Under the pieces are notes generated by a model. It did not search any database, was not told the DNA's origin, and saw only the letters and a list, made by a program, of their open reading frames with translations. From a virus: a stretch of 47,690 nt of DNA. Both the position numbers and the translations under genes were made by a program. Position 1 is the stretch's first letter. Each line of letters opens with the position of its first letter. Shown piece by piece: positions 52 to 47,642 of this stretch. The stretch is taken from positions 1-47,690 of the IMG/VR virus record IMGVR_UViG_3300050821_004051. One strand, given 5' to 3'.

Positions 52-86
52 GAGGGGGACCTAACGCACGGTGATAGAGCCCCCTC
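52..86 (+). repeat. Hairpin repeat element, copy 1 (CAC-S-GTG core)
   Basis: G-rich left arm GAGGGGG, a CTA...TAG inner pair around the core CACGGTG (67-73), then AGAGCCCCCTC. The right half is shared with copies at 7056, 12837 and 34644 (other strand). It lies 24 nt upstream of the first early gene and points in the direction of transcription. It may be a promoter, operator or RNA hairpin; the sequence alone does not decide. Confidence 0.7.
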
Positions 87-110
87 AATCAAACGCGGCC
101 ATAGGAAGCT

Positions 111-695
111 ATGGACGCGGACGGGGACGCGGCTGCGGCTGCGGATGTGATGCGCAGTTGGATTGACTGTGGCCACGCGTTGTGGTATGCTCGGGGGATC
201 AATTGGGAGATACAACTGATGGCATGGACGCGCGGACGACTTGGACCGGCTGAAGCTATGGCGCTCAAAGGGCGAGAAGCGGATGATTACAGGGACTGGT
301 GCACGGAGCATTTCGAGGAATTGATGGCTGACGACGCTCCCTCGCTTGAGGATATGGACGATGGGATTGAGGAGCCGGCACCGCTCGTTATAGACTATTC
401 AAACCAACAAATTGAGCGGGAGGATATTGAGCGTATTGCCTCAACGCTCGAGATCGATCCTGATCCGAGAGCTACGGCCGCGCGGGAACGGGCCAGGCGG
501 TCAAACATGATCCGCAAGCTCAAAAATCGATACAACACCTACGTGCCGTTTACGTGTGAGGACGCTGCTCAACGCTGCAAAATGAGGGAGGGGGAAATGA
601 ATACATTTCTGCAGTTTGAATGCTCAATTGCAGGATCGTTGTTCTCTCGTCTTGGTGATGGGCGGTATATGATCCGCTCGCCGTGGGGACCGTGA
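111..695 (+). CDS. First early protein, unknown function (194 aa)
   Basis: Not recognised. It is the first gene of the plus-strand block, starting 24 nt after repeat copy 1. AGGA lies 4 nt before the ATG. The middle is acidic (about residues 65-115), followed by a basic stretch around residues 125-145. The C-terminal part (about 148-185) has alternating helical segments that could be a small DNA-binding fold, but no clear helix-turn-helix is visible. Being first in the block, a host-takeover or regulatory role is possible, as inference only. A promoter follows immediately after its stop, so it may be transcribed separately from the genes behind it. Confidence 0.65.
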   Translation: MDADGDAAAAADVMRSWIDCGHALWYARGINWEIQLMAWTRGRLGPAEAMALKGREADDYRDWCTEHFEELMADDAPSLEDMDDGIEEPAPLVIDYSNQQIEREDIERIASTLEIDPDPRATAARERARRSNMIRKLKNRYNTYVPFTCEDAAQRCKMREGEMNTFLQFECSIAGSLFSRLGDGRYMIRSPWGP

Positions 696-714
696 TTGAG
701 GGGGTTCCTCGGGC

Positions 715-743
715 TTGACATTCCCGGCGAGTTGTGATACGCT
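715..743 (+). promoter_or_regulatory. sigma70-type promoter
   Basis: TTGACA at 715-720, 17-nt spacer, TACGCT at 738-743. The expected start near 750 gives a leader of about 54 nt before the ATG at 804. A GAGGGGG half-site similar to the arm of the hairpin repeat lies just upstream at 698-704. Confidence 0.65.
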
Positions 744-803
744 ACGGGCGTTAGCTCGTTGGGGGTTAACGAACGGCCCTGGTGGCCGTGGAGGATCGAG
801 CAA

Positions 804-1034
804 ATGGACTTAAAACCAGAACATCCCAAGCGTTGTTGGAGCGGGGCTGTGCCGCTCCAAGATGATTTCGATAAGACGATTGTCGCCTCTTTCATAGACG
901 GTGCAACAATTCGCGGACCCTGGGCAATTATGACGCTTGAGTCGTTCAAGCTCTACGGTCTTGGTCTTGGTCTTGGGGTTGGTCAAAAATACCAGCTTCA
1001 AGATGACGGTCGCTGGCTGAAGGTGGCAGGCTGA
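804..1034 (+). CDS. Small early protein, unknown function (76 aa)
   Basis: The start is set by GGAGG at 790-794, 9 nt before the ATG. An upstream in-frame start at 759 lacks this site. The protein contains a run GLGLGLG near residue 55 encoded by three GGTCTT hexamers. First gene behind the promoter at 715; its stop overlaps the next start (TGATG). Function not recognised. Confidence 0.6.
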   Translation: MDLKPEHPKRCWSGAVPLQDDFDKTIVASFIDGATIRGPWAIMTLESFKLYGLGLGLGVGQKYQLQDDGRWLKVAG

Positions 1035-1228
1035 TGCTTAACCCTCTCGCCTACTCAACCAACGAGGCGTATCTTCACGCTCGGGCTCTGTCCCGTGGGG
1101 TACGCCTCGTACCGCTTCAGCGCTCTAATCACCGGATATGGCCGCAGTCATTCGCGCGGCGTTTCGGCGGAGCGTTGACGCTCTTTGCACTCGCCTTCTT
1201 CGCCTATGTGCTGTGGAGGCTGCCATGA
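1034..1228 (+). CDS. Small protein with C-terminal membrane segment (64 aa)
   Basis: The ATG overlaps the preceding stop. Residues about 46-62 form one hydrophobic helix (ALTLFALAFFAYVLW) after a basic stretch, consistent with a single-pass inner-membrane protein with the N terminus in the cytoplasm. Function not recognised. Confidence 0.55.
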   Translation: MLNPLAYSTNEAYLHARALSRGVRLVPLQRSNHRIWPQSFARRFGGALTLFALAFFAYVLWRLP

Positions 1229-1434
1229 GTCGGCGCGTTCGTTCAGCCGGAGCGATTGCGCCTCAACGCTACGCCCACGCGGTCCATATCACCTATCTCG
1301 CCCACACCGAGGCGGAGGAGATTGCCGCTCGGCTATTCAGCGCTGACGCAGCGAGGATGGAAGCGGTCCGTGCAAAGCGAGCGCTGCGTAAGCCGAGCGC
1401 TCCGCGCCGGTTCTCATGGGAGGAGGGACAATGA
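1225..1434 (+). CDS. Small basic early protein (69 aa)
   Basis: Starts in an ATGA overlap with the previous stop, with GGAGG 5 nt upstream; this start is preferred over one at 1138. Arg/Ala-rich, largely helical, with EAEEIAARLF in the middle. Function not recognised. Confidence 0.55.
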   Translation: MSRRVRSAGAIAPQRYAHAVHITYLAHTEAEEIAARLFSADAARMEAVRAKRALRKPSAPRRFSWEEGQ

Positions 1435-1772
1435 CTGTCAGGGACTCATTTGTAGCCCATTTCGGCGAGGAGAATGCACTCGCCTTTGAGGCTGCAGCGG
1501 AAGAGCATGAGAATGGAATGCACCCGAATAAGGGCAGCGATCCGTTCCAGTGGACGCTCATGCTTGTGCTGAGCTATGAGTGCGCGAGCAAGCCCCGCTA
1601 TGCCAAATACCATGGGATCACCGCTCCCTGGGATAAGGTCGATGCATGGATCATTGAGCATGGCCACATGGCGGACTATGACGGTGATATTGACGCGCTT
1701 GCGCTGTTCACAAAGACATATGACCGTTACGTTGAGGTCGCCAACGGCGACAGCGGTGAGGGAAACAAATGA
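1431..1772 (+). CDS. Early protein, unknown function (113 aa)
   Basis: The ATG at 1431 follows GGAGGAGGG and overlaps the previous stop (ATGA). A start at 1416 would place the ribosome binding site inside the gene. The soluble, acidic protein has conserved-looking Trp, Tyr and Cys residues in the middle (QWTLMLVLSYECASKPRYA). Function not recognised. ATGA coupling to the next gene. Confidence 0.6.
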   Translation: MTVRDSFVAHFGEENALAFEAAAEEHENGMHPNKGSDPFQWTLMLVLSYECASKPRYAKYHGITAPWDKVDAWIIEHGHMADYDGDIDALALFTKTYDRYVEVANGDSGEGNK

Positions 1773-2038
1773 TCCGGATCATCTATCCAGGGGGCGAGGA
1801 ATGCCCAGACGCTCTGACCTTTGAAGAGATGCAAAAGCTCGTTGGAGGTTACGTCGAGTGCAATCATACTCGCCTTGGGGATGAAATCGTGCAGGCGATC
1901 TGTAATGAAGATGGGATCGCCCTCGGCCTCCCGTTCAATCCTCGCGCTCAGGCGATCTTCGGAGACAAGTTCCTGATGCCGCCGCAAGGCGCGCTGGGAA
2001 CGTGGATCATCCTCTCAGGCAAGGATATGCTGACATGA
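1769..2038 (+). CDS. DUF3846-like protein (89 aa)
   Basis: The pattern MIRIIYP..., EEMQKLVGGYVE near residue 20, a short strand ending CNEDGIALGLPFNP, then a closing I/L-rich strand (GTWIILS) matches my recollection of the DUF3846 family, small phage and plasmid proteins of unknown role. Length is typical. ATGA overlap on both sides. The family assignment is from memory of its motif. Confidence 0.65.
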   Translation: MIRIIYPGGEECPDALTFEEMQKLVGGYVECNHTRLGDEIVQAICNEDGIALGLPFNPRAQAIFGDKFLMPPQGALGTWIILSGKDMLT

Positions 2039-6418: not shown

Positions 6419-6763
6419 TTGCTCGATCCAACGCCCCCGGCAGGTTCGTTTTCAACTGGACCTCTCTACACGTCCCCGCTCAGAATTTATCACCTAACTG
6501 GAACCTTCTGGGTCTACGATTACAAAGGGTTCCTGTGCTCAACGGAGGACCCCGCGGATCTCGTTCAGTTGTTGATAGCAGAGTCGGCTCGTCCTACCGG
6601 GGAGGGGCCTCATTTCCGGGCCCGGGACCTCGTTCATCCTGGGACGGCGGAGGCGCTCTATGCGACCTACCAAGCCGCTCGGAACCTTCCCCCTCCGAGC
6701 AGCCCTTCACGCTTATCTCACCCGGTCCCCGTCAGCGTTAGTCTTGAGGACCTCGGGCTGTGA
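6419..6763 (+). CDS. Early protein, unknown function, TTG start (114 aa)
   Basis: TTG at 6419 is preceded by AAGGAG with 8-nt spacing; no ATG fits. It contains IYHLTGTFWVYDYKGFLC, a beta-rich segment, then helices. Ends in a GTGA overlap with the winged-helix gene. Function not recognised. Confidence 0.6.
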   Translation: MLDPTPPAGSFSTGPLYTSPLRIYHLTGTFWVYDYKGFLCSTEDPADLVQLLIAESARPTGEGPHFRARDLVHPGTAEALYATYQAARNLPPPSSPSRLSHPVPVSVSLEDLGL

Positions 6764-7044: not shown

Positions 7045-7055
7045 GGACCTCGATA

Positions 7056-7086
7056 CCCCCCTATCACACCGTGTTAGAGCCCCCTC
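7056..7086 (+). repeat. Hairpin repeat element, copy 2
   Basis: CCTATCACACCGTGTTAG followed by AGCCCCCTC, core CACCGTG at 7067-7073. The last 20 or so bases match copy 4 (reverse strand at 34644) almost exactly. Unlike the other copies, its left arm is C-rich and cannot pair with the right arm beyond CTA/TAG. It lies 41 nt upstream of the -35 box at 7127. Confidence 0.7.
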
Positions 7087-7126: not shown

Positions 7127-7155
7127 TTGACACCCCCACGGGGGGCATGTAGAGT
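7127..7155 (+). promoter_or_regulatory. Strong sigma70-type promoter with palindrome in spacer
   Basis: TTGACA at 7127-7132, 17-nt spacer, TAGAGT at 7150-7155. The spacer holds CCCCCACGGGGG, an inverted repeat that could be an operator. The predicted start near 7162 gives a leader of about 34 nt with AAGGAG before the ATG at 7196. Confidence 0.75.
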
Positions 7156-7195: not shown

Positions 7196-7756
7196 ATGCC
7201 CGAGATCACTTCCGACACCCCCCGCGAGACCTACACCATCGCGGGCGAGTCGTTCAACGTCCCGCTTCCCTACGCTGTCGGCCATGCACTGACGGAAGGG
7301 GAGGCCAACGCCCTCAATCAGACCTGGGCGGAGAACATCCGCAACAACCTCGCTGGGAAGATCAAGGAGGCCAAGGAGGCCGGGTCCTTCGACGCCGAGG
7401 TCTTCCAAGGCACGGTCGATGACTACGCCGACGGGTATGAGTTCGGTGTCCGCACTGGCGGCGGCCGGACTGGCGACCCGGTCATGGCCGAGGCCCTCAC
7501 CATCGCGCGCGACCTGGTCCGCAAGGCCATCGTCAAGCAGGGCAAGTACAAGCTTGCCGATGTGAAGGCCGCTCAGATCACTTCGCTTGCGAAGGGCCTG
7601 ATCGAGAAGAACCCGACCATCCTCGAGACCGCCAAGGCGCGGGTTGAGGAAGTCCGGGCCATCGCCGACGTGGAGCTGGGAGACCTCAGCCCCGCGAGCG
7701 AGGGCGAAACCGAGGCCGAGCCCCGCAAGGCTCGCGCCAAGGCCGCGGCGGAGTAA
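7196..7756 (+). CDS. Early paralog of the right-end protein, unknown function (186 aa)
   Basis: AAGGAG 8 nt before the ATG sets the start; a frame start at 7127 would overlap the promoter. Residues about 100-170 (DPVMAEALTIARDLVRKAI, ITSLAKGLIEKNPTI) align with the protein at 47004-47465, so the two are paralogs. Both have their own promoter and are followed by a strong hairpin, suggesting high single-gene expression. The acidic-helical N-terminal part and an Ala/Arg/Glu-rich tail are specific to this copy. I recall this as a recurrent phage protein family without known function. A nucleic-acid-binding or abundant host-modifying protein is possible, but unsupported. Confidence 0.75.
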   Translation: MPEITSDTPRETYTIAGESFNVPLPYAVGHALTEGEANALNQTWAENIRNNLAGKIKEAKEAGSFDAEVFQGTVDDYADGYEFGVRTGGGRTGDPVMAEALTIARDLVRKAIVKQGKYKLADVKAAQITSLAKGLIEKNPTILETAKARVEEVRAIADVELGDLSPASEGETEAEPRKARAKAAAE

Positions 7757-7921: not shown

Positions 7922-8152
7922 ATTCTGGAATATCTGTATCAAGCTCTCCGTTCCGCTCGCGGAATAGTCGTGCGAACGACTGACCGTGATCGCCTGCGAG
8001 CTAAGCTCTACACCGCCCGTCGGGAGGCAAACGATACAGCGCTCGCAGAGCTTGCGCTCGTTCCATCCCCGACTTCTGATGACGAATTGTGGATACTGAA
8101 GAAAAATGCCCCGAGTGAAATCGACCGAGCCGCTCCTCAAGGTGAAGATTAA
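7922..8152 (+). CDS. Conserved small phage-type protein with unusual start (76 aa)
   Basis: The frame is open from 7859 and contains no ATG/GTG/TTG until a GTG at 7970. Yet the conserved-looking part begins earlier with ILEYLYQALRSARGIVVRT, so I place the start at ATT 7922, 8 nt after GGGAG (CTG at 7925 is the alternative). The pattern, ending LWILKKN, resembles a widespread small phage protein family of unknown function (from memory). Overlaps the next gene by 47 nt. Confidence 0.5.
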   Translation: MLEYLYQALRSARGIVVRTTDRDRLRAKLYTARREANDTALAELALVPSPTSDDELWILKKNAPSEIDRAAPQGED

Positions 8153-8330
8153 CCTCTTCGCTGCGGACTATGAGCGGATGCAGATGATGTATCCATCGAC
8201 CGGGGCTGGGCCGGCGATCCGTGCGCTCGTCCGCTCGCATGTGAATAAGATCTCCCGGAACGTGGGAACGCTCGCGCCGGTTGAGATCGGGGATATCGAT
8301 ATCGATCTGGAGGAGGAAGAAGATGCTTGA
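8106..8330 (+). CDS. Possible ribbon-helix-helix-like protein (74 aa)
   Basis: A short beta strand (LLKVKINLFAADYERMQMM) followed by two helices (GPAIRALVRSHVNKI) resembles RHH-type DNA-binding or related small phage proteins. The tail is strongly acidic (IDIDLEEEEDA). Overlaps the end of the previous gene. Role as a regulator is inferred. Confidence 0.55.
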   Translation: MPRVKSTEPLLKVKINLFAADYERMQMMYPSTGAGPAIRALVRSHVNKISRNVGTLAPVEIGDIDIDLEEEEDA

Positions 8331-12836: not shown

Positions 12837-12871
12837 GAGGGGGTCCTATTGCACGGTGATAGGACCCCCTC
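12837..12871 (+). repeat. Hairpin repeat element, copy 3, perfect 13-bp stem
   Basis: GAGGGGGTCCTAT at 12837-12849 pairs perfectly with 12859-12871 around the 9-nt loop TGCACGGTG. It lies in the only real gap of the middle region, before the ParB-methyltransferase gene. A second small inverted repeat (TGGGGGACCCCCA, 12878-12890) overlaps that gene's ribosome binding site. Confidence 0.8.
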
Positions 12872-12889: not shown

Positions 12890-14158
12890 ATGATCCAAGG
12901 CGAAACTGCGGTAGTCCGCATCTCTGATATCATTATCTCACGGGGCGAGCGGCTCCGAGGAGAACTCAAACCTGAACGCGTCGCGGAGCTGGCCGAGTCA
13001 ATTGCACGACTCGGCCCTATTCACTTCCCGGTCATCACGAGGGACATGACACTCGTCTCCGGGGAGACCCGCCTCGCGGCATATCGCCACCTTGGTTGGG
13101 ACCGTTGCACCGTTACCTGGGCAGACACCCTTGATGAGGACGAACTTCTCGCTATCGAGTTGGAGGAGAACGTCAAGCGGACGGACCTCACATGGCAGGA
13201 ACAATGTTCCGCGATCCAGCGGTTCCACGCGCTCCGTCTCCGAACGGAAGATACCTGGTCTCAGACAAAGACGGCCGAGGCTCTCGGCATGAGTCAGGCC
13301 CGGGTCAACGAAGCACTCATGATCGTTGCGGCAATCGCAGGGGGCAACGCTCGTGTGGCCGCTGCGCCTTTGCTGAGCACCGCCCGTAACGTGGCCCGCC
13401 GAGCGGCTGAACGGCTCGCCTCTGACGAGGCCGTCATGCTTGCCACGATTGAAGGAGACATTGATGTTAGTCCCGAGCGTTCCGAAGGACCGATCCTCAA
13501 TACTGATTTCTGCGAATGGGTCAGTGATTATCGTGGACCGCCTTTCAACTTCCTTCACTGCGATTTCCCCTACGGAATTAACGCCGAGCGTTTCAACCAA
13601 TCCGCTGGGGGAGAGTTTGGAACGTATAAGGACGACTTCTCCACATACGAAGGGCTCATCGAGACTCTCACCGAGAACCGACACAGACTTCTTGGAGACA
13701 GTGGACACATTATCTTTTGGTTCTCTATGCGACATTATGATTTCACACTCCGAGCCCTTACAAGACATTTCTGGGTCGATCCCTACCCATTGGCTTGGAT
13801 TAAGTCCGACAACAAAGGAACCTTGCCTGATCCTCAGCGCGGTCCAAGGCGGATATATGAGGTTGCATTCTTATGCAGTCACGGAGACAGAAAGATTATC
13901 GCTCCTGTATCTAATGCTTTCTCTGCTCCGACCGAAAGGTCTGGAGACCACATGAGTGAGAAGTCCCAGCCGATGTTGGAGCACTTCATGAGGATGATCG
14001 TGGATGAGAACACTCGGATGCTGGACCCTACTTGTGGTAGCGGTAGCGCTCTGCGGGCTGCCGATCGTCTTGGCGCTTCATTCGTGCTGGGGCTAGAACG
14101 AGACGCGGAGTTCGCTGCCAACGCCCAACGCGCTTGGGAGAAAAGGAATGAGCTATGA
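12890..14158 (+). CDS. ParB-like / DNA adenine-or-cytosine-N4 methyltransferase fusion (422 aa)
   Basis: The N-terminal part, residues 1-110, is a ParB/sulfiredoxin-like domain (LAESIARLGPIHFPVI, SGETRLAAYRHLG, ELEENVKRTDLTWQE). A helix-turn-helix follows (TKTAEALGMSQARVNEALM). From about residue 200 there is an N4/N6 methyltransferase. Motif IV is DFPY near 223 (the usual DPPY with Phe) and motif I is DPTCGSGSALRAADRLGA near 379, so the order IV-target domain-I is beta-class. It would methylate an exocyclic amino group of DNA, probably to protect phage DNA or mark it. No restriction enzyme is adjacent. The 11-nt overlap with the next gene couples it to replication. Confidence 0.85.
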   Translation: MIQGETAVVRISDIIISRGERLRGELKPERVAELAESIARLGPIHFPVITRDMTLVSGETRLAAYRHLGWDRCTVTWADTLDEDELLAIELEENVKRTDLTWQEQCSAIQRFHALRLRTEDTWSQTKTAEALGMSQARVNEALMIVAAIAGGNARVAAAPLLSTARNVARRAAERLASDEAVMLATIEGDIDVSPERSEGPILNTDFCEWVSDYRGPPFNFLHCDFPYGINAERFNQSAGGEFGTYKDDFSTYEGLIETLTENRHRLLGDSGHIIFWFSMRHYDFTLRALTRHFWVDPYPLAWIKSDNKGTLPDPQRGPRRIYEVAFLCSHGDRKIIAPVSNAFSAPTERSGDHMSEKSQPMLEHFMRMIVDENTRMLDPTCGSGSALRAADRLGASFVLGLERDAEFAANAQRAWEKRNEL

Positions 14159-19715: not shown

Positions 19716-22246
19716 ACTTCATCCTCCTGCTTGTTGTCGTTGGCAATGAAGTCTGGTAATGCCAGATCATTATAGCTGATCGACACTCCCGTAATACTCC
19801 ATTCCGTTGCGGTCAGCTTGGTCAGCGTCGCTTGTCCACAAGGACCAATAGTCCGGGAGCCTGTATTGCCAGATGGAAACCACTCCAATGTATCCGTCGT
19901 ATTGAGGGTGATATTCCCAGCGCCGCAGTCGTTGACCAGTTCTATCTTAGTCCCGATGGCATACGCCACAGAACTGTTGGCTGGGATCGCCCAATTCCTT
20001 GCGGTCGAGTCGGATGAGGAGTGCATGATCTGCCCACCAGCATCAGACAGAACGAAGGTGTAGAGGTTGTTCTGAATGTTCTGAGTTGGTCCACTAAACC
20101 GGCTGTCATTGCCGGCAGCAAGAGTGGTTGAGGTTGTCCCCTGCAGCGCCCCGGCGAACGTCGCGTAGCTCACCGCGGTCGGAGCGGCTGTGCTGCCGGT
20201 GTTGTTCGCAAGAACTGTATCCGCCCCTTGCGTCGCTAGCCCTGCAGTTCCCCAGCTAGGATTAGCGGACGCGCCACCAGTCACCAAGGCTTGACCATTA
20301 GTCCCCGGCGCTAGCACGACCCAAGATGAGGAATTTCGATAAAGAATGTCTCCTTGTGTCGAACCGATCGCAGCATCGATTGTCGCGGTCAGGGTATTGT
20401 CAATCGGCGCAGCCGTACTGCCGGTGATGTTAGAGAGGATATCGTGGGCACCAATAGTCGCGAGACTGATCGTGCAGGTTGTGGTGCAGGTGCCGCCGGT
20501 CAATCCTGTACTTGTCGCCACACTCGAGAGTGGCGTTACCCAGGACGGATTAGCCGCCGCGCCTCCAGACTTCAGTAACTGCCCAGCCGTCCCAGGGCCA
20601 AGGTCAGTCCATACAGTGCTGGAACGATAGAGGATATCACCTTGGGTATTGTCGATGGCCTTGTCGATTGTGGCCGTGAGAGTATTTGCGGTCGGAGCGG
20701 CTGAGCCAGCGGTGATGTTGGAGAGCAGGTCTCCGGCTGCGATAGAGGCAAGACCGATCGTTCCTGTGGTAGTGATCGTCCCTCCAGTGATCCCGTTGTT
20801 CGTCGCAACTGAGGTGACGGTGCCAACACCACTTACAGTCTGAAACGTTGGAGGATTACCCGCACCGTTAGAGGTCAGCACTTGCCCCGCCGATCCAACC
20901 GCTGTCACGCCAAGGGCGGAGGTTCCGTTGCCGTACACGACACCATCTGCGGTATAGGTCGTCCCTGTCAGCATGGTTGGGAGCCCAACGGTGCCGGAGG
21001 TCGTAATGGTCCCTCCGGTCAGTGGGGAAGAGAACACGATCGAGGTGACTGTACCGCTGCTCCCGGTCCCGCTGCAATCCGATCCGGTCCCGCTAATCAC
21101 TCCGGAGGTATTAACGTGAAGGCATTGTGCGGAGACCCCTGTTGCGAAGCCGAGGGTCAGGCTCGTAGCCGCTGTGGCAGACGTGAGCGTCGGGGTTGTG
21201 ATGCTCGGAGAGGTTGAGAATACCAGGTTAGTTGAGGTAGTTCCTGTCGCCCCGGCTGCAGTGTAGCCTGTGATGTTGTTGAACGCTGTGATGCTGGCAG
21301 AGGTAGCATTGGTCCCTCCAAGCGACACCGGCACCGGAGCGGTTATAGAACAAGTCCCTGTCGTGGTGATGGTCCCACCACTCAGTCCAGTCCCGCAGAC
21401 CACTGAGGTGACTGTCCCTGTCCCGCCGGCCGCTGCCCACTGAACATTCTGCCCAGCGCCTTGGGTCTCAAGAAACTGCCCATTGGTCCCAGGCGCGAGT
21501 GCGAGCCATGCAGACGCTCCACGGTAAAGGACTTCCCCCTCAGTCGATCCGTAATTGGAGTCGAGGCAGGAGGTCAGCGTCCCAACAGCAATAGTGCCTG
21601 TGGTGGTGATAGTACCGCCGGTGAGACAAGCCCCCGCTGTGATTGAGGTCACCGTGCCTGCACCACCGCCCCCTCCTCCACAGGTCGAGGAGATAGTCGG
21701 GTTGCCCGACCCATCAAAGGTCAAGCAGCCGTTCGCCCGGACGCTCGCGGAGGGAAGGGTCATTGGGCCGGTGTCAGTCAGCGGAACATACACTCCGTAG
21801 AATGCCTTGTTCGCCAGCTGCTGGGTCTGCCCAACGTCCCAATCAGCCACCTGCTCAACAGTGTGTGGATAGAATGATTGGTTCTGAACCGCGGTAGGTT
21901 GGACGTAGTTTTGTGCTCGCTGAATGACGACCGAGGTTCCTGTCGGAACTGGCACGCCACCAGGGTTGTACGTGACCGAGCCGCCGGCAGGGTTCCCCAC
22001 CCCACTGATCGTATAGTTCGCAGAGGAGATTGGAGTGAGCGCTCCGGTCGTAGTGTTCAATGTACTCACCGTGACCGCTGGGGTCACCCCATCAGACTGG
22101 TAGGGGATCAGGAATGAGTAGTTAAAAACCGTCGTCGCACCGTTCCCTGCGTCGATCGCTTGAACCGTAGCCGATGGGATAGTCGCCAGCGCCGGCCCCG
22201 CGATCGCCAAGGCAAAGACGATGAGGAGATTTCTGAGAGCGTTCAT
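19703..22246 (-). CDS. Tail fibre / receptor-binding protein with signal-like N terminus (847 aa)
   Basis: After a hydrophobic signal-like start (LLIVFALAIAGPALA) the first 160 residues resemble the virion-anchoring domain of T7-type tail fibres (FNYSFLIPYQSDGVTPAVTV, YPHTVEQVADWDVGQTQQLA). Then come repeated beta modules: GTVTSV...GGTITTTGT motifs and ~95-residue units with NTLTATID, GDILYR and PGTNGQ/PGTAGQ cores. The C-terminal portion (ARNWAIPANSSVAYAIGTK) resembles a fibre tip. It probably binds the host surface. ATGA overlap with the giant virion protein gene. Confidence 0.85.
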   Translation of the reverse strand: MNALRNLLIVFALAIAGPALATIPSATVQAIDAGNGATTVFNYSFLIPYQSDGVTPAVTVSTLNTTTGALTPISSANYTISGVGNPAGGSVTYNPGGVPVPTGTSVVIQRAQNYVQPTAVQNQSFYPHTVEQVADWDVGQTQQLANKAFYGVYVPLTDTGPMTLPSASVRANGCLTFDGSGNPTISSTCGGGGGGAGTVTSITAGACLTGGTITTTGTIAVGTLTSCLDSNYGSTEGEVLYRGASAWLALAPGTNGQFLETQGAGQNVQWAAAGGTGTVTSVVCGTGLSGGTITTTGTCSITAPVPVSLGGTNATSASITAFNNITGYTAAGATGTTSTNLVFSTSPSITTPTLTSATAATSLTLGFATGVSAQCLHVNTSGVISGTGSDCSGTGSSGTVTSIVFSSPLTGGTITTSGTVGLPTMLTGTTYTADGVVYGNGTSALGVTAVGSAGQVLTSNGAGNPPTFQTVSGVGTVTSVATNNGITGGTITTTGTIGLASIAAGDLLSNITAGSAAPTANTLTATIDKAIDNTQGDILYRSSTVWTDLGPGTAGQLLKSGGAAANPSWVTPLSSVATSTGLTGGTCTTTCTISLATIGAHDILSNITGSTAAPIDNTLTATIDAAIGSTQGDILYRNSSSWVVLAPGTNGQALVTGGASANPSWGTAGLATQGADTVLANNTGSTAAPTAVSYATFAGALQGTTSTTLAAGNDSRFSGPTQNIQNNLYTFVLSDAGGQIMHSSSDSTARNWAIPANSSVAYAIGTKIELVNDCGAGNITLNTTDTLEWFPSGNTGSRTIGPCGQATLTKLTATEWSITGVSISYNDLALPDFIANDNKQEDEVWAA

Positions 22247-25200
22247 CTGCGTCCTCTTCTGCGAGACCGGGACGAGCCCGGAGGATGGTCGCCGGCTAGG
22301 AGTTGCCGGAGCATTTCAGTGGTATTTTCAGGTTGGACCTGCCCGGTCATCATATCGTAGGATGACTGAGCGGTAATGCCCATCTGGTCGGGCGGTGCGC
22401 CAAGGGCAAAGCCGGTGGCATCAACGAGAGAGCGAATGGGAGACCTTACAGGCTGCATGAACGCCGCGAGCAGCGCTTGGCGGTAGGCATTGGTCTCCTC
22501 AGAGACAATGTTATGCTCATCCGCCTGGAGACCTTTGGCCCCCACATCAGCTATCACATCGCCGAATACAGAGCTCCCAACGGTCGTGTGGAGGAAGCCT
22601 TCTTGCAATGCATCCCCCCAGCTCTCAGCGGCCGCGTCAAACTCTTTCCGCTTCCAAGCGTAGAGCATCGCTGGCAGAACACAGAACGTGAAGAGGTTCC
22701 AGAAGATCTTATCGAAGTTCATATTGGCTTGGTTGCCAGTGAACTTAGCCCGCGTCGCCATAGCCATGACCCATTCGCGGTTGAACGTAGTGTTTCTGAA
22801 CCCCATGAAGGTTCCGGCTAACGTCCGACCAATCTCCCCAACAGCGTTATGACCGCCTCGAAGCACTGGCGGAGAGTCCATCGTTGAGCCGGCACCTTGA
22901 GTATCCCTAACCGCTTTATTCGCAAGACCGATCGCGGCTTCCTCATCGTTATCTCGATCCATCTGCTTGCGGTACTCAGCGAGCCAAGTCATCCTCGCCT
23001 CGATCTTCTTCAAGATCGCGAATTGCTGAGCGCCGAGCTTCTGAATATAGGGAACGAGGCCTTCCTTGTCCTCCGCCTTGCCGAGAAGCTCCGTGATGTC
23101 TCGGTCGATCCCGTAGTCTACATTCCGGAGTTCCCCAGACTTTTCGTCAATGAACTTCATCCAGTAGGATAGTTGACCAGGGGTCCTGAACACATCGAGG
23201 ATTGCCTGTCCGTATATGTCCTTAGCCGCACCGGGGAGATACAGGCCGCCTTGGCCGATCATGTGGGAGGTGGCAGTTGGCGTATGGAGGAGGAAGGTTG
23301 ACGCTCGGAACATCACTTGCGTAGCGACAAAGTTACGGCGGATACCGCGGATCATCTTAGCGAGGTCATCAGACCCCGAGCCGGAATAAACGGCCTCACG
23401 TGCGATGTATTCGAGCCAGTCACGGTTAAGCCCTGGCCACTCCGGCCCGACAACCTCCTGAAATGCCTTCACCACGTCAGGCTGTGACAGCACCTTGTTC
23501 ATCTGGATCAGTGCTTTGCGCCAGGCAATGTCATGGATTTGCTGCTGAATACCCGATGGGATCATCTCAGCGCTCAGGTTGAGTGGAGCTACAAATCCGG
23601 TTACGGCCTTAGTGTAGTTGTTTGAAGGAGCGGCTGAGCGGTTCTCACCTCCGAGGATACCTGTTGGATCGCGAGCAGTCGGGTCTTTGATCCCCATACG
23701 TTCAAGGTATGATTGCATATAGCTGATCGGGTAGTACCAGCCGGGGCCACCCTCAACTTCCCGAAGCGACTTGCGGCGAGGGGGCACGCCTGAGACGGTC
23801 TTATCCCGATAGGTCTCAACAACCTTGGGCCAGAGTTGTTCCTCGTAGATCGATCCAATCTTCCGGACATAAGCCCAATCATCAGGTGTCGCCGCGCGGC
23901 GGACAGCGGTCATCACATCGTTGTAAGACCATCCGTAGCCGGCGAGAAGCTTGGTCAGGTTCTCCGTCGTTCCGAGGTTAAGCATCAACGCACGGAGGTC
24001 CCCTCGAGTCCTGATCCAGTTGATCCCCTCGAACTGAAGCTCCGGAACATCAATCAATTGCTTGCCTGAATTGAGCACCCCAGGATGAGCACGATAGAAG
24101 TCCGCAAGTCCCTTCATGACCGCGCGGTGGAGATCGTCCTCGACGTACCGAGCCTCCGCTGCGATGTTCACGACGTAACGCATAAGCGGGCCGAATTGAT
24201 CTCTATCGAGATAGCTCATAACTGTCTCAGGCCGAAGCTGAGCGTTCGCAATGATCCGGGGGACTTTGTCCGCGCCGTCCTTGATCTTGGCATGCAAGTC
24301 CGTCCGGGCCTTGCGCCGGCCAGCCTCAGTATACGCGGGTTTCCGACCGAGGGTGTCTGCGTTCGCCGCAACCTCCTGACCAATCGCGGCGAGAGTCTGA
24401 GCCTGGTTCGCCGCATAGGCTTTATTGACCGCGGTCCCGAGGTTCTTCAGTCCGTTAACCATCTCGCGGACGTTACGGAAGTCAGCAACCTTCTGATCCT
24501 TCGGCAGGATATTGGGCACATCTGCCTCTGGCGGCTCGATCATCATCTGCCGCAGCATCCCCATGAACTGAGGAACACTAACTCCATTGAGCGCTTGAGC
24601 CAGTTCCTCCGGCTGCCGATTGACCTTCATTCCCATCTGCTGGAAGATGGAATGGATTTGGTTAAGGAAATCCTGATCGATCGTCGGGGAGGTTGAGCGG
24701 CGAGCAAGCCGCTGCCAGTTGTTCATGGTCGCTTGGAATGTCTTAGCGAGCTTATACGCCTCCTGCAGCTTGTAGTAATTGAGGACAGCATTCTGCCTCG
24801 CCTTGAACCCGGCGATCAAATCCTCAGGCTTGTCGGTCAGCAAGCCTTTCTCAACTTGGATCATGTTCTGTCGGAAGGAATTTTGCAGGCTCTTGATGTT
24901 CGTAGCGTCTGCTACCTTCATCGCCTCAAACGAGGCCTTTGCAACCTGCTTCATGTCCTGAGCGTTGATCTTCATGATCTCGCCGGTGCGGTCGTCGATC
25001 AGACCATGCTCCGCGACGAAGGACTGAAGGTTACCGACGAGCAAGTCCCCGATCTGCGGGGCGACGATGGAGGCTCGGGCCTCTTCCAACAGCGCCGCCG
25101 GCGACATATCGAAGCCTAGCTCAGCCTCGGCCCGACGAGCAGACTCGAGCTTGAACTCCCTGACGAGCCAATTCTTAAACGAGGTCTCACCGTGCGTAGC

Positions 25201-27630
25201 ACGGAGTGCGGCGATCTCGTTGAGCATCTGCTCCGCGGAGTCGAAACCAAGTTGAGAGGCGAAGTCCTCAGCCGGCAGGCCGTCCTTGGCAAAGAGGCCG
25301 CGGGGGAGGGACTTGATCAGCTCCGGGGAGAAGTTCTTGCGATCTGCCTCCGCGAGCTTAGTTGCCACCGGCACTGCGTCCGGGCGGTATTTGAAGAATA
25401 CCTGATCGCCATTGGCAATAGCTATATTCAATGAAGGAGATACAGAATTCTCCTTCATGTGAGCAGCATCGAACGGCGGCTTAACCGCTGCCCACATCTT
25501 CGGCTGTTCCCACTGAGACCAAGAAGCACTCTGCAAAGCGCGCTCTTGATCCCTTACACGGGAATGAAACTCAGCGTCTGTCTCATAACTTAACTGAGGA
25601 CTATGCGCTTTGTAGGCATCTAGCGCAAGCTTCACATGCTCAGCCTTACGGAAGTCGGCCGGGTTCTTGGCTTTCAGATGGACTACGTAAGTGACGTGGC
25701 CGTAAGTGGAACCTGTATTAGGGTCATAGTGCTGGCCACCCTTACCTTGTCCCCACTCGGAGGCAAACACAGGATCATAGCTGAAGCTCATCACCGCATG
25801 GGGAGAATGATGTGGAACTTCCCAGCGCTCAATATCAGCATGACCAGACCCATGGTAGAATGTAATAGGCTTCCCATTCTCCACCAGCGCGTTGTCTTTC
25901 AACAGGTCCGGGCTCGACAATTCCGTCCCAAACTTCAGTTGGTGGTAAGCCTTAACGTCCCTCCGGCCCATCACGTCTTGCACAACTTGCGGATAGTTCC
26001 GTTCGTACGCTCCTTTGTACTGCTTCGTAGCGTAGAATTTCAGCTTCGCAACAGTCCGCTTGATAGCGTTATCGTAGATAGCTTGCTGTGCGCCCTGGAC
26101 TTTCTCACTCCATTTGCCGAGCAGCTGCTCATTGGTCTGAAGTGCAGACGGCGCCTCGAACAGCCCCTTGAGATACATCTCCTTCGCGGCTTGCTGAACG
26201 CCCTGGGCAATCGTAGGCGCAAGCGCCCGCATCGCCTCGTTCGCAGAGTCAGGGAGCGTCGGGTCGGACTTATACTCGGGGTTAAAGCCGAGCGGCTCCG
26301 GCGGCGCGGAGGGAATTTCTTTTGCGTCTGCCTGAGACAGGCCGTCTTCGGAGAACCGAGTGATCTCTCGGATCGCATCGGCGAGGGGATGGCCGCTCAT
26401 TGTAGTCAGATATTTCGAGAGAGGAAGAGCGTACTCACTCCCCGTATCCAAGCTATTTAGAAGTGCTGTTGAAGCCTCGGGGGTTGGGGCTAGTTTCTGC
26501 AGCAAGTCGGAAAATTGTGGACCAGACAGACCCATGCCGAGGTCCATAAGTTTTGGGCCGTTGATGTAAGCATTCTTTTCCGGCAGCGTATGTTCCAGGA
26601 AGTCCTGCATAGTCTCCGGGGAGCGTTCGGCAACCTTGGTCTCAGCGATAGCCTCCTCAGCGTTCCGGACTTGCTCCGCTTGGAAGTCCGCAGCGGCTAC
26701 GTGGGTTGCATCAGTCTCAGGGGAAACGCCGGGGCCGGGAGTTCCGACCGGGCCACCCTCTACAGGGACTTGCTGTAGATGGAATGAACCATCAGCGTTG
26801 GCGTAAGGCTCCCAACGGGTTCCCTCAGCCGGAAGGACTGAGGTCGCATAGCGCCCCATTGCCCTCGGCTCAGTAAACCTGATCGGCGCTCCATCAGGAC
26901 CAAGCGCTGGATTAATCGGACCTGGGCCGGTCGGAGGAGCCTCAGGCCCTGGCGGACGAATGAAGCCGGCCGCTCCACCCTCCGCAGGCATTATCCCCAT
27001 CAGGGCAGTATTAACAACCCCATAAATCTTCTGGGCATTCGCCGGCCCAACCAGCGAGGTTAGTCCAGCCTGTTCGGCTTGCTGAGCTTGGAAAGCTCCC
27101 GGCAGGAATATCCCTTCTGCAGCGGTTGAGACCGCTCCGAACAGATCGCCGAGGGCAGAACCTTGGGTCTTGAGCCGGCCCCATTGGTCTAAAAGAGGGC
27201 CGAACGCTCCGGGTGTTGGATGGAGATCAATCTGCGCCGATCGAGCGGCTTGGGTATTGATATCAGCAAGCTGTGCCCCTGCCGCTGCGAACGGAGCACC
27301 AAGGAAGTTAGAGATGCTATTCGCTACCTTCGCCATAGCCGGCAGGTCATCTTGCGACGCGGCCACATGCTGAGGTGCAGCGTTCGCGAGATAATCCCGA
27401 AGCACCGGCGAGTCGCTCAGTGCCTGCTGCTGTTGGGCAGAGGTTTGCGCAGACCGCACTTGATCCGGCACCGTCATAGCAACTGCCGGAGGCAACCCCG
27501 TCGCGGCAGCGCCTTTGATCCCAAGAGCCGCATCGTCCGGCTTGACGGTCTGCGCAGCGGCAAGCTTTCCAGATGCCTGCATCTGACCGTCTTGTTGGAT
27601 CAGCGTGGAGTACTCGTTTGTCTCAGGCAT
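22243..27630 (-). CDS. Giant internal virion protein with ADP-ribosyltransferase-like domain (1795 aa)
   Basis: By position (after gp14- and transglycosylase-type genes, before the fibre) and size it corresponds to T7 gp16, the ejected core protein that spans the host envelope. Start ATG 27630 overlaps the previous TAA. Residues about 585-747 carry an ART-PolyVal-like domain: ITFYHGSG, MSFSYDPVFASEWGQG, TYVVHLKAKNPADF and closing NIAIANGDQVFFK. This fold transfers ADP-ribose to a target and is known from polyvalent proteins carried into cells. Long helical regions fill the rest, with a hydrophobic stretch near residue 1650 (LFTFCVLPAMLYAW). Confidence 0.75.
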   Translation of the reverse strand: MPETNEYSTLIQQDGQMQASGKLAAAQTVKPDDAALGIKGAAATGLPPAVAMTVPDQVRSAQTSAQQQQALSDSPVLRDYLANAAPQHVAASQDDLPAMAKVANSISNFLGAPFAAAGAQLADINTQAARSAQIDLHPTPGAFGPLLDQWGRLKTQGSALGDLFGAVSTAAEGIFLPGAFQAQQAEQAGLTSLVGPANAQKIYGVVNTALMGIMPAEGGAAGFIRPPGPEAPPTGPGPINPALGPDGAPIRFTEPRAMGRYATSVLPAEGTRWEPYANADGSFHLQQVPVEGGPVGTPGPGVSPETDATHVAAADFQAEQVRNAEEAIAETKVAERSPETMQDFLEHTLPEKNAYINGPKLMDLGMGLSGPQFSDLLQKLAPTPEASTALLNSLDTGSEYALPLSKYLTTMSGHPLADAIREITRFSEDGLSQADAKEIPSAPPEPLGFNPEYKSDPTLPDSANEAMRALAPTIAQGVQQAAKEMYLKGLFEAPSALQTNEQLLGKWSEKVQGAQQAIYDNAIKRTVAKLKFYATKQYKGAYERNYPQVVQDVMGRRDVKAYHQLKFGTELSSPDLLKDNALVENGKPITFYHGSGHADIERWEVPHHSPHAVMSFSYDPVFASEWGQGKGGQHYDPNTGSTYGHVTYVVHLKAKNPADFRKAEHVKLALDAYKAHSPQLSYETDAEFHSRVRDQERALQSASWSQWEQPKMWAAVKPPFDAAHMKENSVSPSLNIAIANGDQVFFKYRPDAVPVATKLAEADRKNFSPELIKSLPRGLFAKDGLPAEDFASQLGFDSAEQMLNEIAALRATHGETSFKNWLVREFKLESARRAEAELGFDMSPAALLEEARASIVAPQIGDLLVGNLQSFVAEHGLIDDRTGEIMKINAQDMKQVAKASFEAMKVADATNIKSLQNSFRQNMIQVEKGLLTDKPEDLIAGFKARQNAVLNYYKLQEAYKLAKTFQATMNNWQRLARRSTSPTIDQDFLNQIHSIFQQMGMKVNRQPEELAQALNGVSVPQFMGMLRQMMIEPPEADVPNILPKDQKVADFRNVREMVNGLKNLGTAVNKAYAANQAQTLAAIGQEVAANADTLGRKPAYTEAGRRKARTDLHAKIKDGADKVPRIIANAQLRPETVMSYLDRDQFGPLMRYVVNIAAEARYVEDDLHRAVMKGLADFYRAHPGVLNSGKQLIDVPELQFEGINWIRTRGDLRALMLNLGTTENLTKLLAGYGWSYNDVMTAVRRAATPDDWAYVRKIGSIYEEQLWPKVVETYRDKTVSGVPPRRKSLREVEGGPGWYYPISYMQSYLERMGIKDPTARDPTGILGGENRSAAPSNNYTKAVTGFVAPLNLSAEMIPSGIQQQIHDIAWRKALIQMNKVLSQPDVVKAFQEVVGPEWPGLNRDWLEYIAREAVYSGSGSDDLAKMIRGIRRNFVATQVMFRASTFLLHTPTATSHMIGQGGLYLPGAAKDIYGQAILDVFRTPGQLSYWMKFIDEKSGELRNVDYGIDRDITELLGKAEDKEGLVPYIQKLGAQQFAILKKIEARMTWLAEYRKQMDRDNDEEAAIGLANKAVRDTQGAGSTMDSPPVLRGGHNAVGEIGRTLAGTFMGFRNTTFNREWVMAMATRAKFTGNQANMNFDKIFWNLFTFCVLPAMLYAWKRKEFDAAAESWGDALQEGFLHTTVGSSVFGDVIADVGAKGLQADEHNIVSEETNAYRQALLAAFMQPVRSPIRSLVDATGFALGAPPDQMGITAQSSYDMMTGQVQPENTTEMLRQLLAGDHPPGSSRSRRRGRR

Positions 27631-29771
27631 TACTGAAGCACCCCACGAATGCGTTGGGACTGAGCCCAAATACGCCCAACGTCAGCGTCTCCGTAATTCA
27701 GTCCTTGAGCCGCTGCGGCCGCTCGGATTTTAGCCGCCTCGTCCGGGGGGACTTCATAGGCTCTGGCGTTTCCGACCTTGGCAGTCACCCGAGCGATGAT
27801 CTGACGGAGGTCAGCATCCTGCGGGTCTCGCCCGTTGTTCGCAGGACTAGCGCGGTAAGCCTCCACCTCCTCTTCCAACGCCCCTTGGAACTGATAATAC
27901 TTCGGAGGGAGCGGCCCGGTTGGGGGCATGAGCCCAAGGGCTTGCACAGCGTTCTTCCCGTCAGGGGAGTTCATCGCGCGTTGGACGACAGTGTCAGTCT
28001 GCTGCTCATGTGTCCTTGCGTTCTTAACCTCATCCTGCTTCGCGATGAGGCTCTGTTTCTGACCGATGGTCAAATTCATCGAGCGGATATCATCCCCAAT
28101 AAACAGGGATTTATCCCCCCAAGCACCCTTGGCCGCGGAGTACCGACCGAGTTCTTCGGTATAGGCTTCACTCCGCTCATAAGTATTGGTGTTGTCCACA
28201 GTGGATTGCAAAGCATGCTGATACTTCGGGGGGAGGGCTGCCCATTGAGAGGGGAATTGCTTTTGAATATCCTCGGTTGAGGTCACCTTTCCTGAGGTAA
28301 ACAGCCCTTCAAGGTTATCATAATTCGCCTTCTGCCCTTCATCCACAACCTGAGCGTCCATATGCGCGCGCTGCATAGCGGCCTCGTACGTCCGCTGAGC
28401 CATCGCGGCGTTATCCGGAAAGGCTTGCTGCGCCCGCTGCCACAAGGTGGTTGTCGTCGATGCCAGCCACTCATCTACGTTCGTGGTAGGTCCTGGCTTC
28501 GGGATTGGAGCGAACGCAACTTCCGCACCGCCGCTAGCGCCACCCGCTCGAGCAATAACTTGGTCGGCATAGGCGTTGGTCTTTGGACCCCATTTAGATG
28601 TATCAGGACCGCCATAGTAGTACTCCGCGGCTTTCCTCAGATCGCCGTTGTTGGCTTCAAGACCTTGCTGGAAGTACGCATGACCGAGCTGCTCTTGATA
28701 CGCCGCGGCTTCAGGAGTTTTCTCCGTCATTAACTCCGGTCGCCAGGGCAGGCCAAGCTTCTCCGCCATCGCCTGCGCAGTCGCAGGGAGCATCTGAGTG
28801 AGGCCCTGAGCTTGGCCGTAGGGGGTTTCAGGCCCTGTGACGCCGGGTTGGTTGTGGCTCTCTTGGGTCTTGATCGAGGCCCACAGAGACTCCGGCGTAG
28901 CCGCACTCGCTTGGCCGGAAGAGGGAACACTCTTCCCTCCCTCATACATCGCGTTCGCAGTGCTCTGCACATCATTCGCAAGGTTGGCCGTGCGGTAGGC
29001 GTTCTGCACTGCACGGAGGTCTTGGAGCGTCATATCTCCAGAGTGCTGCTGGATCATCCGACCGGCGGTGTCTACATCACCAGCACTCAGTGCAGCACTG
29101 ATCTTCGCCTCATACGCTGGGGAGACATAAGATTTTATCTTGTCGATGATTTGAGGATCGTCCGGTTGGAGCCCAGCGGTTGAGAAGAACTGATGTGCGG
29201 ACGCGGCGGCTTGCTGAAGCATCCCAGCCTCAAGATGGCCGTCAGGATCAGCTTGGGAGGACCCATACAATTGCGCTGCGGCAATGGCATTTTTATCCGC
29301 AGCGTTGATCCGGCCGAGCGTTCCTTGGGCAGCGGCATAACCAGCGCCCTCGATCAAGAATGACCGAGCATACCGTTGGGCAAGGTCCTGATAATCCCTA
29401 GCCGCAACAGGGCTTAGCCCTTGCAGACCGTCCTGTACGATCCCCGTGACCTGCTTTTGGAAATCCGGAAAGGTTGCGACCGCGGCATCTTCAGTATGGT
29501 TCTCCTTCCACGCCGCATACGCCTGCCCAACTTTCTGCGCAGTGTCATAGCCACGAGTCGCAGCTACCTGGGCATTGTATAGAGTCTGGACCTTCCCCGC
29601 GTAGTCATAAAGGGCATCGCCGGCTTGGCCGGTTGCCTTGCTTGCATCGGCAAGGCCTGCGGCTAGCTGCGTTCCTCCAAACGCCTCAGCCGGCGCGTTA
29701 ATGCTTTGCCCTGGAGTCGGCGCAGCGCTCTGCGGAACGCTCGGGACGGTAAGTTCAGGAACCTGCGCCAT
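27630..29771 (-). CDS. Internal virion protein with lytic transglycosylase domain (713 aa)
   Basis: Residues about 300-400 are an SLT-type lytic transglycosylase: catalytic Glu in IKTQESHNQPG, then GQAQGLTQMLPATAQ and AEYYYGG. It would open the peptidoglycan locally during DNA ejection. The flanking regions are long helices typical of T7 gp15/gp16-like core proteins. Start is ATG 29771 in a TGATG overlap (a TTG 3 nt upstream is possible). It sits between the gp14-like and giant proteins, as in T7 order. Confidence 0.82.
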   Translation of the reverse strand: MAQVPELTVPSVPQSAAPTPGQSINAPAEAFGGTQLAAGLADASKATGQAGDALYDYAGKVQTLYNAQVAATRGYDTAQKVGQAYAAWKENHTEDAAVATFPDFQKQVTGIVQDGLQGLSPVAARDYQDLAQRYARSFLIEGAGYAAAQGTLGRINAADKNAIAAAQLYGSSQADPDGHLEAGMLQQAAASAHQFFSTAGLQPDDPQIIDKIKSYVSPAYEAKISAALSAGDVDTAGRMIQQHSGDMTLQDLRAVQNAYRTANLANDVQSTANAMYEGGKSVPSSGQASAATPESLWASIKTQESHNQPGVTGPETPYGQAQGLTQMLPATAQAMAEKLGLPWRPELMTEKTPEAAAYQEQLGHAYFQQGLEANNGDLRKAAEYYYGGPDTSKWGPKTNAYADQVIARAGGASGGAEVAFAPIPKPGPTTNVDEWLASTTTTLWQRAQQAFPDNAAMAQRTYEAAMQRAHMDAQVVDEGQKANYDNLEGLFTSGKVTSTEDIQKQFPSQWAALPPKYQHALQSTVDNTNTYERSEAYTEELGRYSAAKGAWGDKSLFIGDDIRSMNLTIGQKQSLIAKQDEVKNARTHEQQTDTVVQRAMNSPDGKNAVQALGLMPPTGPLPPKYYQFQGALEEEVEAYRASPANNGRDPQDADLRQIIARVTAKVGNARAYEVPPDEAAKIRAAAAAQGLNYGDADVGRIWAQSQRIRGVLQ

Positions 29772-34643: not shown

Positions 34644-34679
34644 GAGGGGGCTCTAACACGGTGTGGTAGAGGGTCCCCT
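34644..34679 (-). repeat. Hairpin repeat element, copy 4 (minus orientation)
   Basis: On the minus strand it reads CCACACCGTGTTAGAG then CCCCCTC, core CACCGTG, near-identical to copy 2. The arms CTCTA/TAGAG pair, then G-rich/C-rich extensions. It points in the direction of late transcription and sits directly before the 34633 gene. Confidence 0.75.
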
Positions 34680-46757: not shown

Positions 46758-46763
46758 ACGAGC

Positions 46764-46815
46764 ATTTTACCACACGGCTGAGGCGTGTCAAGAGCGCTAC
46801 CCAAAAATATTTTTT
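46764..46815 (-). promoter_or_regulatory. Strong late promoter with UP-like element
   Basis: On the minus strand: A/T tract at 46803-46815, TTGACA at 46786-46791, 16-nt spacer, TAAAAT at 46764-46769, then 6 nt to the ATG at 46757. The start point should coincide with the start codon. It is the only strong promoter seen for the whole late operon. Confidence 0.8.
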
Positions 46816-46948
46816 GAGGTCGAAGGGGGGTCTCAATGGTTTTTGGGGCTCGTTCTGCTGAACGCTTGGCGCGCGATGGCGGGGGGATGCGGCGAAAGCC
46901 GGGTGGCCCGCTTCGCAAAGAGAGACCAACGGTCATCAGGCATGAGAA

Positions 46949-46977
46949 AACCCCCAGGCGTGTGATGCCTGGGGGTT
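46949..46977 (-). terminator. Intrinsic terminator after the right-end gene
   Basis: Perfect 11-bp stem AACCCCCAGGC / GCCTGGGGGTT with a 7-nt loop, followed on the minus strand by TTTTCTC. It insulates the right-end gene from the late operon. Between it and the late promoter (46816-46948) I see no gene. Confidence 0.88.
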
Positions 46978-47003
46978 GGGCCGTCTCAATGATGATCGAT
47001 TGA

Positions 47004-47465
47004 TCAATCGTTGTCAAGCCCTTCGAGGTCAACGTCGATGGACAGGTCCTTAGTCGCCGTCACGTTGGCCTGCGCAGTCGCCGTGATGGACTCGTTCTTG
47101 GCGATCAACTCCTTCGCCAATTCGCGGACCTTCGTCGCGCCGACATCCTTGACCTTAAGACCTTTGGCCTTGAGAGCCTTTTCGACCATGCCGGTTGCGA
47201 TGCGGATGGCTTCGGCCTTCACTGGATCGGACTCACGGTTCGGCGACGCACGGAGCACGCCGTTGGCGAGGTTATCGATCCGCTTTTGAACGAGCGGCAT
47301 GATCTCCGACTCGTCCTTGGCCGGCGCAGCGGCATCGTTCAGCAACTGCTGGAAGCCGTAGGCGAAGATCTTTTCAATCGACGCGAGCGGCCAGTCCGCG
47401 ATTGCGACCGTGACGGATTGTTTACGAACGGCAGCGGTCATTTCCGCTGGGATTTGGTATTGCAT
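47004..47465 (-). CDS. Right-end paralog of the early protein at 7196 (153 aa)
   Basis: The start is ATG 47465, with GGAG upstream and within a leader of about 30 nt; a longer frame to 47504 would begin inside the -10 box. The C-terminal half (SDPVKAEAIRIATGMVEKAL, LAKELIAKNESI) aligns with the protein at 7196-7756, so both belong to one family. Acidic C-terminus (DVDLEGLDND). The gene is a single-gene unit with its own promoter and terminator, a sign of high expression. Function unknown. Confidence 0.78.
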   Translation of the reverse strand: MQYQIPAEMTAAVRKQSVTVAIADWPLASIEKIFAYGFQQLLNDAAAPAKDESEIMPLVQKRIDNLANGVLRASPNRESDPVKAEAIRIATGMVEKALKAKGLKVKDVGATKVRELAKELIAKNESITATAQANVTATKDLSIDVDLEGLDND

Positions 47466-47502
47466 GGTGATGACTCCAATCGCCGGGATTGGCGATAACC
47501 CC

Positions 47503-47530
47503 ACAATACACCTCGGCGCGGACGAGTCAA
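47503..47530 (-). promoter_or_regulatory. sigma70-type promoter of the right-end gene
   Basis: On the minus strand TTGACT (47525-47530), 16-nt spacer, TATTGT (47503-47508). Predicted start near 47496. Confidence 0.75.
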
Positions 47531-47620
47531 TCGTTATTTTGCGCCGTCGCCAAAACCCCGTCCGCAGCCGCAGCCAACGCTGGAGCCATAGCCAATGTTG
47601 CGTCCATAGCAGATCATGGC

Positions 47621-47642
47621 CACTCGTTGATAGAGCCCCCCC
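47621..47642 (+). repeat. Partial hairpin-repeat element, copy 5
   Basis: CACTCGTTGATAGAGCCCCC keeps the right arm and a degenerate core of the repeat element. If the ends join, it lies about 100 nt before copy 1 on the same strand, with the T tract between them. Confidence 0.5.

Follow-up and report, generated by a model that had tools for sequence, protein, structure and literature searches.

In plasmid RK2, the ParB-family protein KorB and its small partner KorA regulate promoters by means of O_B operators (PMC11790492). According to a survey from 2025, fusions of a ParB-like fold with an N6_N4 methyltransferase are frequent in phages; anti-defence or phage-host roles are suggested there, while the role is left open (PMC12704722), and the main text of that survey does not mention palindromes. 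PMC5512222 refers to a ParB-methylase that has nicking activity. For phage ParB-methyltransferase fusions, our searches of an open-licence library returned no account of the DNA sites recognised. Here, we investigate a repeated palindromic element of the IMG/VR virus record IMGVR_UViG_3300050821_004051, whose entire length of 47,690 bases was analysed (in the following, the window), and its relation to the ParB-methyltransferase encoded by the same phage. Based on computation, as all our conclusions are, we consider it probable that the elements are parS/KorB-operator-like DNA sites of this ParB-methyltransferase, which would control the transcription units of the phage, perhaps together with a small co-regulator. 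Systems of this kind are known; what would be new is a variant in which two-box sites, dispersed and specific to each lineage, belong to a phage ParB-methyltransferase.

The locus shares several features with KorB/O_B (PMC11790492), i.e., a ParB-family helix-turn-helix (HTH) protein, dispersed palindromes both proximal and distal to promoters, a candidate small DNA-binding partner and promoters of the type used by host RNA polymerase. In contrast to that system, the protein ends in a methyltransferase, the sites span 31-45 bp with two boxes, their sequences are specific for each phage, and the partner is predicted to be a ribbon-helix-helix protein; a cytidine triphosphate (CTP) clamp and repression are only putative here. 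ParB-parS and Noc-NBS are likewise built from an N-domain plus HTH (the window protein is matched by a Noc profile, see below) and palindromic sites; unlike these, the window shows no ParA, no usual C-terminal dimer domain, a hypervariable recognition helix and a virulent-looking phage. The fusions reported in PMC12704722 have the identical domain pairing (PF02195 and PF01555). VirB with its virS sites (PMC10770331) is also a ParB-like regulator that works from sites upstream of promoters; it differs in being a plasmid anti-silencer without a methyltransferase. Finally, the SAS/ESAS of cluster K mycobacteriophages (PMC3203893) are repeated imperfect inverted repeats whose sequence varies between subclusters, and the right half GATAGAGCCCCC resembles GGGATAGGAGCCC. 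SAS, unlike the window elements, are located 3-7 bp 5' of start codons, occur in 11-19 copies and contain AGGAG. We rejected an identity of both, since a 13-bp AGGAG repeat 3-7 bp before starts is found neither at copies 1 and 2 nor in relatives, which leaves a resemblance.

The window contains four full copies, all with CTA-N11-TAG and an identical 18-mer, CACSGTGNTAGRRCCCCC. A scan with up to 3 mismatches reports 5 matches (4 of them exact) vs. 0.74 expected. Copy 1 (52..86, + strand) is part of the divergent control region and adjoins a poly-T tract, while copy 2 (7052..7086, +), whose outer left arm is degenerate, follows 7 bp past the stop of the 6760-7044 gene. Copy 3 (12837..12871, +), with arms forming a perfect 13-bp stem and a 9-nt loop, is placed 18 bp 5' of the ParB-methyltransferase start codon. 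Copy 4 (34644..34679, - strand) resides within the leftward late operon, 10 bp 5' of a 72-aa gene. Copy 5 (47621..47642) comprises one half-site only and belongs to the late flank of the divergent region; its minus strand reads GGGGGGGCTCTATCAAC, i.e., the element's left half.

The repeated element as such, with four full copies and the half copy at 47621, had already been described in the initial annotation of this DNA, and its coordinates are correct for copies 1, 3 and 4, while copy 2 starts at 7052 rather than 7056. Its statement that the stems differ but compensate does not agree with the sequence: copy 1 shows two mismatched pairs and the left arm CCCCCC of copy 2 is unable to pair with CCCCC. 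Similarly, a position before a gene block was claimed for each copy, which applies to copies 1-3 but not to copy 4 inside the late operon. An orientation that always follows transcription is given for the four window copies but is no general rule, i.e., the family of G030 shows almost no asymmetry, and in G003 the distinctive half faces either way. The half copy is written on the plus strand, whereas the nearest gene runs on the minus strand.

An exact-pattern scan of viral contigs for the window element returned a fragment of the same phage as its sole match, and a loose scan of 36 relatives gave chance-level matches only, because every phage spells the element differently. Relatives were gathered via their portal, ParB-methyltransferase and exonuclease genes, and the whole records were then read; a general dyad clustering was too permissive to be usable. 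At least 14 related phage records have a palindrome family of their own, with 31-45 bp in 2-6 places each, where copy counts are lower bounds given that the records are metagenomic and unfinished. Nine relatives show their palindromes at matching places, namely G003 (TATGGCTCATTC...), G024 (TATGGCTCNCGC...), G028 (TATGGNCCNTTCGCC...), G032 (TATGGCTATTGACAC...), G030 (GATATGTAYGCGGG...), G020 and G005 (both ATGCATAC.TATNCCC...), G019 and G025. Five further families are those of G042 (TATTGCC..ATAAAT...), G043 (TATGGCTGGATAAAC...), G045 (TATGGCTCAACCGC...), G046 and G048.

Four places correspond across records: elements occur in the divergent control region, at the promoter that drives the recombination operon, in the neighbourhood of the ParB-methyltransferase gene and in the late region. 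At the recombination operon, a recurring order is observed, i.e., the end of the upstream gene, the element, a promoter of type TTGACA-17-TANNNT and the operon with the homologue of the 8106 gene. Elements are found near the ParB-methyltransferase gene in the window, G032, L105 and L262, the latter three with dyads directly behind the homologue. The late copy falls within the long frame of a giant late protein in G024, G028, G032 and G020, and within another long frame in G019. The initial annotation had suggested a search of related phages, which thus yields counterparts at equivalent gene boundaries, each with its own sequence. As a separate observation, the more distant relative G018 has an array of TGCAATAATTGCA-like palindromic repeats at 25829-25966.

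When all half-sites are aligned on their centres, information peaks twice, from -15 to -11 and again from -6 to -2, and dips in the positions between. The outer box reaches 1.4-1.65 bits per position, the dip 1.1-1.2 and the inner box mostly 1.5-1.9. Half-sites of one genome have almost identical inner boxes (e.g., TCGC in 10/10 halves of G028 and ATAAA in 10/10 halves of G043), and the box changes from genome to genome. For the outer box, most genomes use TATGGCT or variants of it, occasionally reversed (GCCATA). The inner box of the window is approximately CTATCAC, yielding the CAC-S-GTG core, which recalls the CAC-GTG centre of parS. Beside the elements, the two sides of the divergent region (87-150 and 47540-47620) form an imperfect inverted repeat (GGCCAT..GCTATGGACGC..GGCTGCGGCTGCGGA); it includes CCATAG-GAAG-CTATGG, reminiscent of the TATGGC outer box of relatives, and comparable inverted repeats flank the same region in G003 and G020.

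We also assessed whether the element is a DNA site or an RNA hairpin. Given a functional pairing, the halves of an element should match each other better than halves randomly re-paired from the same genome. Across genomes, halves of the same element pair worse than the re-paired ones (518 vs. 540 ± 9.7 pairs). When folding the window copies as RNA in comparison to shuffles, copies 3 and 1 are strong (z-scores -6.4 and -3.3), while copy 4 does not fold better than shuffles (-0.6) and copy 2 shows another, weak fold (-5.4 kcal/mol). Rfam has no family for the element. Since own halves match no better than random re-pairing and only copies 3 and 1 fold well, and since sites are also located inside coding sequence without a general orientation, the element is a DNA site and not a conserved RNA hairpin. 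The initial reading as an RNA element is thereby contradicted, i.e., base pairing is not kept across copies or genomes.

Directly behind copy 3, the gene at 12890..14158 (+) encodes a fusion protein in which residues 1-190 form a ParB-like N-domain with HTH and residues 207-422 an N6/N4 DNA methyltransferase, as judged from Pfam, PDB profiles, AlphaFold2 (AF2) models, Foldseek and co-variation. PDB profile matches of the ParB part are Noc (E-value 2e-18, residues 6-197, i.e., including the DNA-binding domain), Spo0J and ParB; the Pfam ParB_N match (6e-4) is under the curated cut-off. Residues of the nucleotide-pocket motifs (G58, E59, R61, A64 and E93, N94, R97, D99) are invariant in 11 homologues, and the HTH is modelled by AF2 at helices 125-132 and 136-150 with a predicted local distance difference test score (pLDDT) of about 90. 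That is, both hallmarks of the ParB family, an N-domain with nucleotide-pocket motifs and a central HTH, are present. The methyltransferase part matches N6_N4_Mtase above the cut-off (1e-8) and CcrM by Foldseek (8e-11). It shows motif I and motif IV along with the fold, with CDFPYG being invariant and LDPTCGSG conserved with small variants. The gene is present in 13/13 near-complete genomes with elements vs. 6/13 without (p=0.005), an inflated contrast (see below). G045 and G046 are without the window's capsid/portal families, yet keep both the ParB-methyltransferase and elements.

The recognition helix SQARVNEAL (residues 135-143, codons at 13292..13318, +) is hypervariable between genomes; among the 157 windows of the ParB part, only two vary more. 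We compared its similarity with that of the two boxes for 14 genomes, where the overall divergence of each protein was partialled out. Recognition-helix similarity tracks the inner box (partial r of 0.42, partial Mantel permutation p=0.0005, or 0.001 without the close relative G042), while there is nothing for the outer box (p=0.75). Among the 1824 nine-residue windows of six proteins, SQARVNEAL is on rank 2 for inner-box similarity. The likely binder is the ParB-methyltransferase, possibly together with the small protein at 8106-8330. The winged-helix protein encoded at 6760, which the initial annotation had put forward as binding factor, was rejected, as none of the 25 compared relatives carries a homologue.

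With regard to transcription, a sigma70-like promoter facing away from the element is present within 100 bp for 17/53 elements, compared to 5.6% at random positions (binomial p=2e-9); promoters facing towards the element are found for just 2/53. The remaining elements are distal or in-gene, such that promoter-proximal and distal palindromes coexist as for KorB/O_B. In the window, TTGACT-17-TATGCT (163..191, +) is located 76 bp downstream of copy 1 and TTGACA-17-TAGAGT (7127..7155, +) 40 bp downstream of copy 2, while TTGACT-16-TATTGT of the leftward late block (47503..47530, -) and the half-site are 90 bp apart. Among the initial proposals, that of an operator-like element with a regulatory role at the boundaries of gene blocks is supported by both the counterparts in relatives and the strong enrichment of adjacent sigma70-like promoters.

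By analogy with KorB/KorA, the ParB-methyltransferase would load at the palindromes, possibly clamp in dependence on a nucleoside triphosphate and slide, and occlude promoters for host RNA polymerase together with a small partner. Its HTH would read the inner box of each half-site and a second factor, perhaps the predicted ribbon-helix-helix protein 8106-8330, the outer box. The complex at 4-6 places would then switch or repress the host-polymerase promoters of the early, recombination and late blocks as well as of its own gene; where sites are distant or within genes, it could exert its effect over a distance as a sliding clamp. A KorB-like mechanism fits the sites upstream of host-type promoters, the distant and in-gene sites and the copy before the protein's own gene, and it agrees with the fact that no phage RNA polymerase was recognised. 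One family of phage ParB-methyltransferases would gain predicted targets, a site anatomy of two boxes and, in the recognition helix, an apparent determinant of specificity, such that the function of these proteins becomes directly testable in terms of binding, clamp and methylation. By extension, phages in which no own RNA polymerase is recognised may use a regulon of the KorB type, and the fast divergence of helix and site offers a natural data set for learning ParB specificity.

The candidate outer-box reader is a 74-aa protein (8106..8330, +) encoded in the operon behind copy 2. Its model shows a strand-like segment followed by helices 19-28 and 35-53, and no significant match for the fold is found in Pfam or Foldseek. 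The strand is weakly linked to the outer box (partial p=0.05) and not to the inner box (p=0.45). We regard its role as a lead.

Several observations weigh against the assignment of the elements to the ParB-methyltransferase. No recognisable promoter is near copies 3 and 4, and the promoters themselves are based on consensus matches only. G023, G027 and G037-G040 carry the ParB-methyltransferase, yet no element was detected there. The window protein has GETR, departing from the usual ParB motif GERR. The higher occurrence of its gene in element genomes is inflated, several genomes having been found through this very gene. The co-variation was tested on the same 14 genomes that gave the hypothesis, with relatedness controlled only partly, and one N-terminal window of the exonuclease scored slightly above the recognition helix. 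For the small protein, the outer-box link drops to p=0.2 upon removal of two genomes, and an exact code of its strand triad was broken by the new genomes G042 and G046, such that the triad remains weak support only.

A further-reaching reading also assigns the sites to the ParB-methyltransferase. Its ParB part would load at the sites and slide in cis with the methyltransferase, which would result in a spreading self-methylation of the phage genome and not that of the host. We consider this purpose of the methylation improbable; if true, the divergence of inner boxes would keep co-infecting phages apart.

Under a rival reading, which is likewise improbable, the elements would serve another phage regulator alone as operators or activator sites, e.g., the predicted ribbon-helix-helix protein, and the ParB-methyltransferase would be unrelated. 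Element genomes carry the gene of the small protein in the operon that follows the copy-2 element, and the strand triad of this protein agreed exactly with all six initial element classes in the first ten genomes, compared to 0/4816 triples in other proteins. Furthermore, TATGGCT outer boxes are found in KTN genomes only. Against this stand the failure of the triad code in G042 and G046, the occurrence of the small protein also in 11/13 genomes without elements, and its lack of association with the inner box.

The combination first proposed, i.e., a promoter, operator or RNA element particular to the phage whose factor would be the 6760 winged-helix protein, is very unlikely. Both the block-boundary position and the strong fold of copy 3 agree with it, but pairing is not maintained, a hairpin is unconvincing for copies 2 and 4, several elements are in coding sequence and the 6760 protein is absent from all 25 relatives. 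A promoter for a phage RNA polymerase in particular is at odds with elements that lie upstream of ordinary TTGACA/TANNNT boxes or in coding sequence. No phage RNA polymerase family was recognised among the scanned open reading frames (ORFs) of the window, where the PF00940 search ran without a positive control.

Plasmid prophages such as N15 have a ParB-like protein and several palindromes. The same pair is found here and could point to centromere sites for a plasmid-like partition of the phage genome, which we nevertheless deem highly improbable: a ParA ATPase partner (PF13614) has no match in the window genome, while the control search was positive in 14/14 genomes, an integrase is not found above the cut-off, and the sites are located at promoters. 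Hardly credible are site-specific recombination or packaging sites, for which copy 3 has a lox-like geometry (13-bp arms, 9-bp spacer), as the profile search yields no integrase or recombinase above the cut-off, spacers differ between copies, and sites repeated in both orientations would rearrange the genome. Equally remote are transcription terminators at block ends, since several elements do follow stop codons immediately but lack a T-run, have half-sites no more complementary than chance re-pairing, and are found upstream of promoters and inside the giant late gene of G024, G028, G032 and G020.

The window phage is an uncultured virus of bacteria that appears virulent. Podovirus-type head and tail genes (portal phrog_332, major head protein phrog_212, tail phrog_394 and phrog_376, terminase) are found along with replication and repair genes, i.e., a family A DNA polymerase, UvrD helicase, primase and PDDEXK exonuclease. 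All cultured-phage relatives of the portal are below 60% identity. The 1808-aa late protein (22243-27669) matches LPD22 and weakly ART-PolyVal (phrog_9880), and is by these domains likely a polyvalent virion protein. An N4-like virion RNA polymerase with hairpin promoters, which we considered for this protein, is unsupported, as the polyvalent LPD22/ART domains are matched instead.

The ParB-methyltransferase is also encoded on four contigs of metagenome-assembled genomes (MAGs) from different phyla, which may be binned phage contigs. Contig L261, binned as a genome of Acidobacteria gp4, shows a G048-type element and the ParB-methyltransferase (positions 4073 and 20270); it may be a phage contig and a hint at the host.

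The record ends (1-44 and 47650-47690) overlap imperfectly by 41 bp within a T17-T20 tract. Poly-T is also found at the record ends of G003 and G019, and a T24 tract is inside the G024 record between its elements at 2479 and 2599. Probably, little is missing from the window record, and its break lies at a homopolymer that is conserved in the divergent region. Finally, the function-unassigned proteins at 7196-7756 and 47004-47504 are paralogue-like, each being the first gene after a control region with an element or half-site, and the 7196 family is present in 26/26 near-complete records compared.

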